From contig CADCVH010000094.1 of NCBI GenBank assembly GCA_902806085.1, forward strand, positions 1 to 64,000: a stretch of 64,000 bases of DNA, given 5' to 3'. Source of the stretch: an uncultured Rubrobacteraceae bacterium. Its GTDB lineage: Bacteria > Actinomycetota > Rubrobacteria > Rubrobacterales > Rubrobacteraceae. This document shows, piece by piece, positions 5,104 to 43,460 of the stretch. Position numbers and translations under genes: made by a program. The notes beneath the pieces were generated by a model. The model had not been told where the DNA came from and searched no databases. It saw nothing but the letters and a program-made list of their open reading frames with translations. Position 1 is the first letter of the stretch, and every line of letters starts with the position of its first letter.

Positions 5104-5464
5104 CCCCCGAGGCCCCGCGCGGCAAGAACCGCCTCCTCCTGCCCTTCGCCCCATCCCCCGAGGACAAACGGTACCGCCAACAACGCCACCTCCTGCAAGA
5201 CCACGGAGCTGCCCTCGAGGACCGGGACCTGCTCGTGCCGGATCGTGTCGGAGACAACCCCGACGCGGACGCCGCGAGAAGGCGCGAGAAGGTGCGAGAA
5301 GGCGGTTCGGTGTCGGTAGGGGGGCGTTCACCATAGTACTGGTCGGCAAAGACGGCGGCGAGAGGTTCCGCTCCACGCAACCCGTCAGACCGCAAGCCCT
5401 CTTCGACCGCATAGACGCCATGCCCATGCGCCGGCGCGAGATGCGCGAGAGGAGCGTCGGTTAG
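5100..5464 (+). pseudogene. DUF4174 gene frameshifted by a tandem repeat
   Basis: The first half (frame of 5100) reads NRLLLPFAPSPEDKRYRQQ, typical of the DUF4174 N-terminus. The second half, one frame away, reads GAFTIVLVGKDGGERF and then IDAMPMRRREMRE to TAG 5464, the conserved C-terminus. The break lies in three tandem copies of a 10-bp unit (5274-5303). With a single copy the two halves join in frame as DAARRRFGVGRGAFT, so the present sequence carries a net +20 bp. As it stands the product ends early at 5336 with unrelated residues. The start is uncertain: CTG 5100 overlaps the preceding stop and no ATG/GTG is well placed. Function of DUF4174 is unknown. Confidence 0.8.
5274..5303. repeat. 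Three 10-bp tandem repeats (GCGAGAAGGY)
   Basis: Units at 5274-5283, 5284-5293 and 5294-5303 differ only in the last base. Because 10 is not a multiple of 3, copy number sets the reading frame of the DUF4174 gene: one or four copies are in frame, two or three are not. Confidence 0.9.
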
Positions 5465-37815: not shown

Positions 37816-37850
37816 CCGGAGCCCGCCAACCGTTCCGCCGGTTGCCCCGC

Positions 37851-38059
37851 CTAATGCTCTACGCGGTCGCCGGGGTCGACGGAGATGGTGTCCTTGCCCC
37901 ATCCGCCGTAGGCCTCGTCGTTGCCGTTCACGCCATCGCGGGCGCGGATCACATCCGCACGGCCTCCGCCGTAGAGCTGTCGGCACCGAAACCTCCCCGG
38001 AGGGAGTCCACACCTGGGCCACCGTAGAGATCGTCCGTCCCGCAATCCAGAAGACCGCC
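37851..38059 (-). pseudogene. Remnant of an RTX-like calcium-binding protein
   Basis: On the minus strand one frame reads LLDCGTDDLYGGPGVDSLRG then GFGAD, and a second, one base away, reads QLYGGGRADVIRARDGVNG then NDEAYGGWGKDTISVDPGDR before TAG 37851. Together they are the last four or so nonapeptide repeats of an RTX-like protein related to that at 13685-14170. A missing C near 37979 (GACAGCTC for GACCAGCTC) shifts the frame. The upstream half is absent: it is joined directly to a truncated permease. Not expressed as a functional protein. Confidence 0.7.
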
Positions 38060-38760
38060 TCCGCGGCCGACCGTACTATGTCGGGGCCGGTGTGAACGAG
38101 GTACACGGTGGCCGCGGTAGCCAGTATGGTTTGGATGACGCTCCTGAAGATCGTCGACGCGAGCAACGACACCCCGAGCACGAAGAGCGAGCCCAGCCAG
38201 ATCAGCGCGGCGGCGGCGAAGATCCTCCCCGCGTTTACCGCTTCGGACGGGTAGCCGTGGGCGTAGGCGGAAAGGAGCATCTCGACGGCCCCAGCCAGTG
38301 CGACCGCGAGCAGGCACGCCGCACAGACGGAGTACTTTGTCAGCAGCATCCGGCGCCGGCCCAACGGCCTGGGGAGGAGCAGGTAGATCGAGCCCTGCCC
38401 GACCTCCGCAGAGACCAGGACGACGCCGAGCAACCCAGCCAGGGGTATGAGGATGGCGTGGTTGGCGAACCTTTGTATCTCTTCCAATTCCGACCCGGCC
38501 GCCTTTGCGGGATACCCCGGCTTCCGCATGTTCTCCAGGTCCTCACGCATCTGCCGCTTGAAGATCTCCGTCTCCGCAGGCCCCTCCGTCGGCGGCAACC
38601 TTACCGGCTTCCGGATGTCACGCTCCATCGTCTGTATCCCTTTATCAACGCTCGCCAGGACTTTCTCGTAAAGCCTCGGGGCGATCAACGCGACCGCCAA
38701 GAAGACGAGAACCCCGAGGAGGAGCTTCCACCTGGCATCCTGCCACTCTTTGGCTACCGT
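38060..38760 (-). pseudogene. ABC-2 permease, start codon lost and 3' end replaced
   Basis: The frame encodes VAKEWQDARWKLLLGVLVFL, several membrane helices and IPLAGLLGVVLVSAEVGQGS, a paralogue of the next permease (which begins MIAKEWHDARWK). At the place of the expected ATG the sequence is ACG (38760-38758), 5 nt after GGGAG, and no other start is near. The last helix runs into the RTX remnant around 38060. Both ends are therefore damaged. Third gene of the GntR-ABC operon. Confidence 0.72.
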
Positions 38761-38806
38761 GCCATCTCCCGTCGTACCGACACCGACACCATGGTCATGT
38801 CGCCCA

Positions 38807-39636
38807 TCAGTAGGACCTTCTACGGAAGATCCAGACTGCGGCAAGCAGGGGCAGCGCGGCCGAGGTGAGGCATACGAGAAATTTCGCGGCCGTAAACCCC
38901 CCCAGCCCCATGCCTGTATCGCGTAGGTCACCGTAATAGTAGTGGGCCGGCATCCAGTAGCTAAACAGTGTCAAGCGTGTGGCCAGGACACTAAGCTCGC
39001 CGGTCGAGGACAGGTACAGGTTGAGAATCGAGATCGGAAGCGCGAAGACGAGCGTCAAAGTCAGCGCGAAGGCTACCACGCTCGCCAGCACGCTCCGGAA
39101 GATCACGGAAACCAGCAGCGCGGTCCCTAGCACGAAGAGCATCCCGAGCCAAAGCACGAATACCGAGAGCACGGCTTCCAAGAGTCGTAGCTGTCCAAGG
39201 GGATATCCGCGTACCGCGGCAACACAGATGAGGAGGACCTTGCCCAACACCGCAGCGGCCAGCAGAGTTCCCGCAGCGACTTGCCCAACACCGCAACGGC
39301 CAGCAGAGTTCCCGCAGCGACCGAGTATCTTGCGAGCAACAGACGGGTGCGACTCACCGGCCTCGAGAGGAGTTGCAGCAGGGTACCGTTGTTCGCCTCC
39401 CCAGATACTGAGGCCACCCCCAGGAAACCTGCGAGCGGCATCAAGACTACTAAGCCACCCAGGTAATAGAGGTCGCTCAAGTCCCGCAACGCGTTCTCTA
39501 CGGGGTCCCCTCCCGGTATCCGCTTGGCTTCTTCGACAAACTCCTGGTAAGGAGAGAGTAGGAAAACAAGCAATACGACCGGCACGCTCGCAACTAGAAC
39601 CTTCCACCGCGCGTCGTGCCACTCCTTAGCGATCAT
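38807..39636 (-). pseudogene. ABC-2 permease inactivated by a 41-bp tandem duplication
   Basis: The first frame reads MIAKEWHDARWKVLVASVPV through LLARYSVAAGTLLAVAVLGK, then nonsense to a stop at 39127. The second frame resumes AAGTLLAAAVLGKVLLICVA and continues through helices to FRRRSY and the stop at 38807. The overlap is a 41-bp direct repeat (39239-39320). Removing one copy gives one continuous permease of about 260 residues. The start overlaps the ATPase gene by 11 nt. Second gene after the ATPase; with its sister also damaged, no working permease is left in this operon. Confidence 0.85.
39239..39320. repeat. 41-bp tandem duplication within the permease
   Basis: Copies at 39239-39279 and 39280-39320 differ at one base (GCAGCGG against GCAACGG). 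The length is not a multiple of 3, so it breaks the reading frame. Confidence 0.92.
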
Positions 39637-40582
39637 CCTCGTCCTCCACGTACGCTACGAAGATGTCTTCGAGGTTCATGCCCGTCGAGTCCACGTCGAT
39701 GACGTCGTGGGAGCGGTCCCGAAGAATCTGCTCCACGGCCTTCACCTCGCCTCGCATCCGCGGTTTTATTCCCCGGCCTTCCCGCTCGACCTCCTGCACG
39801 TCGGGCAGGGACTGGAGGCTTCGCACTTCCTCCTCGGGCGGCGTCTCGGCGTAGACGACGCGGAAGACGCGATGGGAGACACGCATGTCGTCAAGGTCGC
39901 CGCTCACCAGCAGTTTTCCGCCCTTGATAATGCCGACGGTGTCGGCGACGGCCTCTATGTCGGAGAGGAGGTGGGTGGAGAAGAAGACGGTGCGGCCTTC
40001 GGCGGCGACCTCGCCGACGAGTACCTTGAGGAAGGCGCGGCGGGCGACGGGGTCGAGGCCCGAGGTGGGCTCGTCGAGCACGAGCAACTCCGGGTTGCTG
40101 CCGAGCGCGAGACAGAGCTGGAGCTGGGCCTTCTGGCCTTTGGGGAGCTTGCGGATCTTGGCCCCCCCGGGGAGGCCGAAGACGCCTATGTAGCGGTCGA
40201 CGAGCCCCTGGTCCCAGGCACGGCTGAGGTCGCGGCAGAGGCGGCAGATCCTGGGCACGGTCATCCCCTCGTAGAGGCTGTTGACCTCGCTGGCGAACCC
40301 GACCCGCGCCCGCACCTCCAGGCTCTCGTCCACGATGTCGTACCCGAGCACCTTCGCGCTGCCGCCGTTGGGCTTTCGGAAACCCATCAGGGTCTTTATG
40401 GTGCTCGTCTTGCCTGCGCCGTTGGGCCCGAGGAAACCGTAGACGGAACCGCGCGGCACGGTCATGCTCAGGCCGTCCACCGCCCGTTTGCGTCCGTAGT
40501 CAACGACCAGATCTTCCACCCGTATCGCGGCACCCTCCTCCGGCACCGAAACCGCCTTCCCGGCCCGCGTGTCCGCCATCAT
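39626..40582 (-). CDS. ABC transporter ATP-binding protein
   Basis: 318 residues. Walker A GPNGAGKTST, degenerate signature LPKGQKAQL, Walker B LLVLDEPTSGLD and FFSTHLL. The C-terminal region after the ATPase is the extension seen in drug/bacteriocin exporters. Starts ATGATG overlapping the GntR stop; overlaps the first permease by 11 nt. The ORF itself is intact although both downstream permeases are broken, so it is either recently orphaned or works with a permease elsewhere. Confidence 0.92.
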   Translation of the reverse strand: MMADTRAGKAVSVPEEGAAIRVEDLVVDYGRKRAVDGLSMTVPRGSVYGFLGPNGAGKTSTIKTLMGFRKPNGGSAKVLGYDIVDESLEVRARVGFASEVNSLYEGMTVPRICRLCRDLSRAWDQGLVDRYIGVFGLPGGAKIRKLPKGQKAQLQLCLALGSNPELLVLDEPTSGLDPVARRAFLKVLVGEVAAEGRTVFFSTHLLSDIEAVADTVGIIKGGKLLVSGDLDDMRVSHRVFRVVYAETPPEEEVRSLQSLPDVQEVEREGRGIKPRMRGEVKAVEQILRDRSHDVIDVDSTGMNLEDIFVAYVEDEDDR

Positions 40583-41007
40583 CCTTCCGCCCCTCTCTCC
40601 CTCGGTATGCGCTCGAACTCGGAATCCAGGCCTTCCCAGAGATCGTCCTCGGTTATGCCGAGCGCCGCCGCGTCGCGCACGAGCAACCTCAGACGCTCGA
40701 AGATCGCCCGTCTTTTGCCCTCCCGCGCCACCTCCGCGACCCCCTCGGCAACGACCGTCCCCACCCCGGGCCTGCTCTCCACGAGCCCCTCCCTCTGCAA
40801 CTCGTTGTAGGCCTTGACGATGGTGTTCGGCGCGATGGCTAGCTCCTCCGCAAGCCCCCGCACCGTCGGCAACTTCTCGCCAGGCCCCAACCCACCAACC
40901 TCCACCGCGTGCCGCACCTGAGACACCAGCTGAACGTAGATCGGAACCCCACTCCGCGAGTCTATGTCGATCCAAACCGCTACCCTTATCACCCCTGCCT
41001 GTATCAT
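40579..41007 (-). CDS. GntR family regulator, YtrA type
   Basis: 142 residues, shorter than FadR/HutC types because no ligand domain follows. The winged helix-turn-helix spans GVPIYVQLVSQVRHAVEVGG, then LPTVRGLAEELAIAPNTIVKA. YtrA regulators typically repress the ABC operon they head, as here. The start may be ATG 41007, which overlaps a TACAAT box, or GTG 40992 (VIRVAVW), so the first five residues are uncertain. The AT-rich stretch upstream is a likely operator. Confidence 0.87.
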   Translation of the reverse strand: MIQAGVIRVAVWIDIDSRSGVPIYVQLVSQVRHAVEVGGLGPGEKLPTVRGLAEELAIAPNTIVKAYNELQREGLVESRPGVGTVVAEGVAEVAREGKRRAIFERLRLLVRDAAALGITEDDLWEGLDSEFERIPRERGAEG

Positions 41008-41624: not shown

Positions 41625-41648
41625 GGCTGCACGAGATCTCGTGCAGCC
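41625..41648. terminator. Perfect 24-bp palindrome
   Basis: GGCTGCACGAGA is followed directly by its complement TCTCGTGCAGCC, between the PIN remnant and the opposite-strand LLM gene. Probably a bidirectional terminator; no other function visible in this stretch. Confidence 0.5.
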
Positions 41649-41817: not shown

Positions 41818-42678
41818 CTACCCCACGAGCTGCGCGATACGGTCGATCTGGTCGGTCTCCGTACTCCAGGTGAAGAACACCACCTCGTCTGTGCCGATCT
41901 GCTCCAACGCGCGCATGATTTCGGAGAGTTGCCGCTCGGTGGTGAGCAGTGTTGCGGACTTGATCTCGTCAAAGGGCGGCGTTATGGCGTAGTAGTCGAG
42001 AACGTTCTTGCGTCCCTGCCCCACGTTTTGGGTCTCGAGTGCGATGTCCATCTGGGCAATGAGACGAGGTTTTTCGACTCTGCCGGCTTCTAGCCAGCTC
42101 TGTTCGATGCTACGGAACATACCGTCTACCTGTTCGACGTCGTTTGTCGCCGTGATGAAACCGTCGGCGCAGCGAGCTGCCCGACGGAACGCGCGCGGTA
42201 CGAAACCGCCGAGGACCACTTCTGGTCCGCCTTCTTGGATCGGGAGAGGCCCGACGGGGCCTGCCGCGTCGGGGCCCGACGCTCGTCCGGCCCAGATGCT
42301 CTTCATGTGGTTCATCTGCTCTTCGAGACGATCGCCACGGCGCTGGTACGGTATCCCTGCGGCGACGTAGTCGTTTTCCCTCCCCCCGGTGCCCAACCCG
42401 AGGGTCAGCCGTCCGTTGGAGAGGACGTCTAACGTGGCGCATTGCTTGGCGAGGACTGCGCTGTTGCGTATGGGGGAGATCAGGACCTCCGTCATCAGGC
42501 GAACGCGCGAAGAAACGGCCGCCGCCGAACTCAAAGCTACCAACGGCTCGAGATTCGGGTAGACCACGCGGTCGAGGATGGACAGGATCGAGAACGGACC
42601 GGCATCCACGCGCCTAACCCATTCCAGCAAATGCTCCGACGACTCCGTGGTCGGCGGAATGCTTATCCCTACGTTCAC
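41818..42678 (-). CDS. LLM class flavin/F420-dependent oxidoreductase
   Basis: 286 residues. Luciferase-like fold: MNVGISIPPTTES start, VRLMTEVLISPIRNSAVLAK, TLDVLSNGRLTLGLGTGGRE and the segment EVVLGGFVPRAFRRAARCAD. The second LLM enzyme in the window and only distantly like the one at 32032. GTG 42678 follows GGGAG at about 9 nt. It lies in the degraded region but its own frame is intact. The substrate is unknown. A 3 x 11-bp repeat lies about 205-237 bp upstream. Confidence 0.85.
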   Translation of the reverse strand: MNVGISIPPTTESSEHLLEWVRRVDAGPFSILSILDRVVYPNLEPLVALSSAAAVSSRVRLMTEVLISPIRNSAVLAKQCATLDVLSNGRLTLGLGTGGRENDYVAAGIPYQRRGDRLEEQMNHMKSIWAGRASGPDAAGPVGPLPIQEGGPEVVLGGFVPRAFRRAARCADGFITATNDVEQVDGMFRSIEQSWLEAGRVEKPRLIAQMDIALETQNVGQGRKNVLDYYAITPPFDEIKSATLLTTERQLSEIMRALEQIGTDEVVFFTWSTETDQIDRIAQLVG

Positions 42679-43460
42679 AGTTGTTTCTCCCTTCTTCTTA
42701 CCTACTTTGACGGGCTCAACGGGAACCTACTCCTCGTTCTTGGGACCGTCCCCCGAAGCCGCATGGTCCTCGGGTCGGTGTGTTGCAGCCGCACCGACGC
42801 TCCCTCGCTGCGTTCCGACATCTCTTCTTCTCGTTGGTTCTTTTCACGCCCTTCCGATTCGTGCGCCCTTGGAAAGTACCCTCGGGGCGTGACCGGGGCG
42901 TGACCGGGGCGTGACAAGAGCGGTCAAAGGGCGGAGGTCGTGGTAACCGAACAGGGGTTGGTACGTTGGAGGGGGAGGTAGTTGCGTGAGGGAAGGTCAG
43001 GCTCGGGGTAGAGGCCGCGGGTCAGCCAACTGCGGCCACGACAACTTGGCTCTGAATAGCCGGCAGCTTGGGGGGTCCGACCTTATCGAGTACGCGGAGC
43101 AGACGAGCTGCGAGAGCCAGAGGGTGCGCCGGTAGCGGCAGGCCGAAGGTCGTAGCGGGGCCTCCACGTTGGTAGGCCCCGAGCTTTGCCCGGGGATCCG
43201 CAGCGTCCTGCCGCACCGTAACCCTGAAGCTCCTGGCGCTGGTGAACACGGGGTGCTAGGGGTAGGCCGGTGGACGTTATCTTCACCGTGGCGTGGGCAC
43301 GCGCTTCCGGCGCCTGGCGAAGGACTAAGAGCGCCTACCCTAGACCGTGGCGAGAGGCTGCGCTCCGTCGCCTTCGCTTCCTTGATCGAGCGATCGCCGC
43401 GCTCGGGGCGAGTCCACAACATGCTCTAGGGGGCAGATCTCGTGTCTCGGTTCGGTATTG
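42679..43460. other. 782-bp region without a recognisable gene
   Basis: No ORF here has a supported start, family motif or codon pattern that I trust. It contains the 3 x 11-bp repeat. Fragments on either strand (for example a minus-strand reading LPLPAHPLALAARLLRVLDK near 43080) look protein-like but are short and broken, so it may be a decayed insertion. Confidence 0.5.
42883..42915. repeat. Three perfect 11-bp tandem repeats
   Basis: CGGGGCGTGAC is repeated at 42883-42893, 42894-42904 and 42905-42915 with no mismatch. The 11-bp period is one helical turn, as in direct-repeat operators of SARP-type regulators. Confidence 0.85.

Follow-up and report, generated by a model that had tools for sequence, protein, structure and literature searches.

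A 41-bp tandem duplication frameshifts a permease gene in an ABC transporter operon that is probably decaying

Introduction

How an ABC-2-type permease gene of an uncultured Rubrobacteraceae bacterium came to be split between two reading frames, and whether the split reflects a mutation, a reversible switch, a gene that works in two pieces or an error of assembly, is the question raised by this locus. It lies within the window, by which we mean the whole stretch of 64,000 nucleotides that was analyzed. A first-pass annotation of the window had attributed the split to a short tandem duplication and, citing two further repeats, had proposed that such duplications still arise actively as mutations here.

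Results

The repeat was investigated by TRF, by a repeat search and by direct reading, which agreed on a period of 41 and on two abutting copies (39239-39279 and 39280-39320) that are identical at 40/41 positions, just as the first-pass annotation had described them. The match register runs one base further, to 39321. At the single mismatch, copy 2 has GTT, not GCT, on the coding strand; the nearest orthologues have Ala at this position and one paralogue in the congener G003 has Val. The offset-41 match of 40/41 at the site compares with a best value of 26/41 in 20 order-4 shuffles of the window, and the 82-bp array occurs only once in the 4.41-Mb genome. The array is thus confirmed as a genuine, frameshifting tandem duplication, and the gene that carries it is organized as follows.

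38807..39636, minus strand: permease 1, an ABC-2-type pseudogene (PF12679) that the 41-bp duplication splits in two
39271-39636, minus strand: N-terminal half of permease 1
39280..39320, minus strand: 41-bp copy 2, upstream in transcription order and in frame with the N-terminal half
39239..39279, minus strand: 41-bp copy 1, downstream in transcription order and in frame with the C-terminal half
38810-39283, minus strand: C-terminal half of permease 1

Read on the minus strand, permease 1 follows one frame through the first-transcribed copy and another frame beyond it. The N-terminal half matches PF12679 with 35.8 bits, above the cut-off of 27.2, and the C-terminal half with 22.3 bits, below that cut-off. 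A frameshift pseudogene of this kind can be recognized by adjacent near-identical copies inside an ORF, with a unit that is not a multiple of 3, and by intact one-copy orthologues in congeners. We observed both. The unit here is 41 bp, and the orthologues of G007 (67% identity) and G004 (62%), which sit in the same ATPase neighbourhood, each form a single open frame with residues 1-262 aligned and one 41-bp copy; no duplication was present at the corresponding site of the orthologues. The frame switch at the array and these intact relatives bear out the proposal that the duplication frameshifts an ABC permease.

We then estimated the age of the lesion from substitution rates and base composition. 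Compared with G007, the N-terminal half gave dN/dS values of 0.161/1.26 and the C-terminal half 0.293/1.62; compared with G004, the values were 0.250/2.0 and 0.347/1.51. The intact G007 and G004 genes compared with each other gave 0.255/1.13, a ratio of 0.23. The ratios for the two halves, ~0.12-0.23, are rough, with synonymous sites near saturation. GC3 was 0.71 and 0.75 in the halves and 0.74 and 0.76 in the orthologues. Both halves thus still look selected, with dN/dS like that of the intact orthologue pair, which indicates a young lesion: judged by these comparisons, it is recent relative to species divergence, and we observed no sign of long decay. The one mismatch between the copies means either that some time has passed since the event or that variants of different strains were merged.

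The surroundings of the gene were investigated as well. On the minus strand, the order is GntR regulator, ABC ATPase, permease 1, permease 2 and a glutamyl-tRNA-synthetase-like gene, and the following features were identified besides permease 1.

40579..41007, minus strand: GntR-family regulator, first gene in the operon
39626..40975, minus strand: the operon's ABC transporter ATPase (PF00005), intact and with its true start inside the ORF
38025..38769, minus strand: permease 2 remnant, ABC-2 type, without the C-terminal ~60 residues (3' boundary approximate)
37850..38070, minus strand: C-terminal remnant of an RTX-repeat gene (PF00353; boundaries approximate)

Permease 2 is truncated. Its PF12679 match covers residues 6-224, and the C-terminal sequence of its homologues was absent from all three frames in which it was sought. 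The RTX remnant runs into the end of permease 2 and takes the place of the missing C-terminal part; by eye, it resembles the C-terminus of the RTX-repeat gene that lies between both permeases in G003. In the congener G001, the corresponding second permease is also a remnant. L021, the record of a Rubrobacter sp. MAG, appears to be this same G001 genome, to judge by its agreement in sequence with L005, which places the host in or near Rubrobacter; its remnant of a second permease (~1367-1794) is decayed, with stops and frame changes, suggesting recurrent loss of this transporter in the genus. In the present genome, the transporter has probably lost its function by two lesions, although read-through or re-initiation could still yield some product.

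To place the duplication in its genomic context, tandem arrays were counted in about one fifth of this genome and about one tenth of each of four relatives. Exact arrays with 8-18-bp units numbered 55 in the 0.97 Mb sampled here (56 per Mb), mostly with units of 11-15 bp, compared with 12, 5, 20 and 2.5 per Mb in G005, G006, G012 and G016, respectively. Order-4 Markov versions of this genome's sequence gave ~1.5 (on 0.68 Mb), to be set beside 56 per Mb, and the excess persisted on large contigs alone (55 per Mb). Arrays with at least three copies numbered 16 in this genome and one in all four relatives. For units of at least 20 bp there was no excess, with 1 near-exact duplication per Mb, namely, the 41-bp case, versus 2.5-5 in the relatives. 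At this depth of sampling, the enrichment of short arrays relative to the four relatives is suggestive. The claim of an active mutational process is therefore supported in part, for short units (11-15 bp) but not for units of at least 20 bp. The 41-bp case, one isolated event in another size range, lies outside the enriched class and alone is no proof of an elevated process. In a codon-model frame plot around the arrays genome-wide, most flanks fell under the confidence limit, and a confident matching frame change was seen only at one 13-bp array (L025:471).

The two other repeats that had been cited in support of such a process are real sequence features. In the DUF4174 case (window positions 5115-5440), two frames matching profile positions 5-55 and 66-120, the out-of-frame halves of the domain, flank an imperfect array of 3.2 copies of a 10-bp unit (~5273-5304). 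The perfect 3 x 11-bp array, CGGGGCGTGAC, lies at 42883-42915, ~205 bp upstream of the minus-strand ORF 41818-42678. A perfect 24-bp palindrome, GGCTGCACGAGATCTCGTGCAGCC, occurs once in the genome, at 41625-41648. Elsewhere, exact arrays of 6-10 copies with 12-15-bp units, part of the genome-wide 11-15-bp excess, were observed at L034:132-255, L057:1-141, L044:10964-11052 and L023:11755-11826, the first two at or near contig starts. A search of the literature on Rubrobacter tandem repeats and on 12/15-bp bacterial minisatellites returned nothing relevant.

Discussion

The locus is very probably explained by a recent spontaneous 41-bp duplication together with a separate truncation of permease 2, in a transporter that has probably been lost and an operon that is decaying and not under a regulated switch. 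The duplication shifted the frame of the first permease gene in a GntR-ATPase-permease-permease operon. It would have arisen spontaneously, between ends with almost no sequence homology, perhaps when the template slipped as the DNA was being replicated or repaired. Since the ancestral ends have only ~1 base in common, slippage between pre-existing repeats is not visible, and a slip of the template in replication or repair is the default reading. Joining by Ku, with staggered nicks filled in, was also considered and was dropped, since this genome and the 12 other genomes of the same family that were tested all lacked a Ku gene. The NucS gene was likewise not found in this genome. For permease 2, the simplest route would be a deletion that also removed most of the neighbouring RTX-repeat gene. 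The data show the duplication, the frameshift, the intact one-copy orthologues, the truncated permease 2 and no sign of long decay; we infer the slippage, the order of these events and the loss of transport activity.

Three other readings of the split gene were weighed against this one. If the array were an assembly error, it would have come from variants of two strains, or from a contig overlap left unmerged, set head to tail. In favour of this, the single-base difference between the copies is what alleles of two strains would show, and the assembly is broken into 133 contigs, with 4.55% contamination. Against it, two independent pairs of contig ends in this assembly overlap by exactly 127 bp, which points to a short-read de Bruijn assembly with k=127 and thus to k-mers that span the 82-bp array. 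A k-mer overlap was dropped as the source of the array on these grounds, and single reads most likely covered both copies. Moreover, ~0.97 Mb of the genome contains no further 41-bp near-duplicate, and an artefact is very improbable.

Reversible phase variation, in which gain and loss of a 41-bp copy would turn the permease on and off, has a precedent in pneumococcal capsule genes (Waite et al. 2001, 2003, as cited in PMC4022640). The unit length fits, since loss of one copy would alter the frame, and the halves of permease 1 are otherwise well preserved. A phase-variable locus would nevertheless be expected to keep its repeat across related species and to be intact in the rest of the expressed unit. 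Here the orthologues lack the repeat at this place, the two copies carry a substitution between them, and the truncation of permease 2, in the same operon, is irreversible, so that an easy return to function by copy loss is doubtful. In a locus that is decaying in this way, a reversible switch is unlikely, and we regard it as only slightly more credible than an artefact. Least plausible of all is a functional split gene, read by programmed frameshifting or translated separately as two half-permeases. Both halves are conserved and the open frames carry on across the junction, but close relatives have one continuous frame and the partner permease is broken. We therefore retain a spontaneous duplication in a decaying operon.

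A broader cause was also considered. A replication or repair defect of the lineage may generate short tandem duplications, with the ~3- to 20-fold excess of 11-15-bp units and the sharp drop above 15 bp as its signature, and the 41-bp duplication would then be a rare long, gene-inactivating product. For the present locus we consider this unlikely, if less so than the three readings above. In an Escherichia coli topA mutant, de novo duplications of 2-19 bp accounted for half of the galK mutations obtained by selection (PMC6954433), a range that covers the size class in excess here (8-18 bp) and is exceeded by the 41-bp unit. In this genome and in its congeners alike, no canonical bacterial TopA exceeded the family cut-off. 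Since the congeners are no different in this respect, topA status cannot set the enriched genome apart from them, and this explanation was dropped. Two divergent type IA topoisomerases (L175, G000:C31:60572-62380) are encoded in place of canonical TopA. With 11-15-bp arrays at several times the density seen in four relatives, this genome is a possible lead to the cause of de novo short tandem duplication, the mechanism of which is called unknown in PMC6954433.

The duplication itself is an ordinary, well-documented type of loss-of-function lesion, and nothing in it falls outside known kinds of mutation. As in other ABC-2-type permease pseudogenes (PF12679), both halves match ABC2_membrane_2, the C-terminal one below the cut-off, and lie beside an ABC ATPase and a GntR regulator; the difference is that the break was made here by a tandem duplication. 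The closest parallels come from the pneumococcal type 3 capsule locus, cap8E/wchA and tts, where spontaneous tandem duplications that disrupt ORFs are described in the studies that PMC4022640 cites (Waite et al. 2001, 2003). There, as here, a tandem duplication within an ORF disrupts it. According to the same source, phase variation was reported for the capsule genes, whereas in the present operon a substitution separates the copies and a second, irreversible lesion is found.
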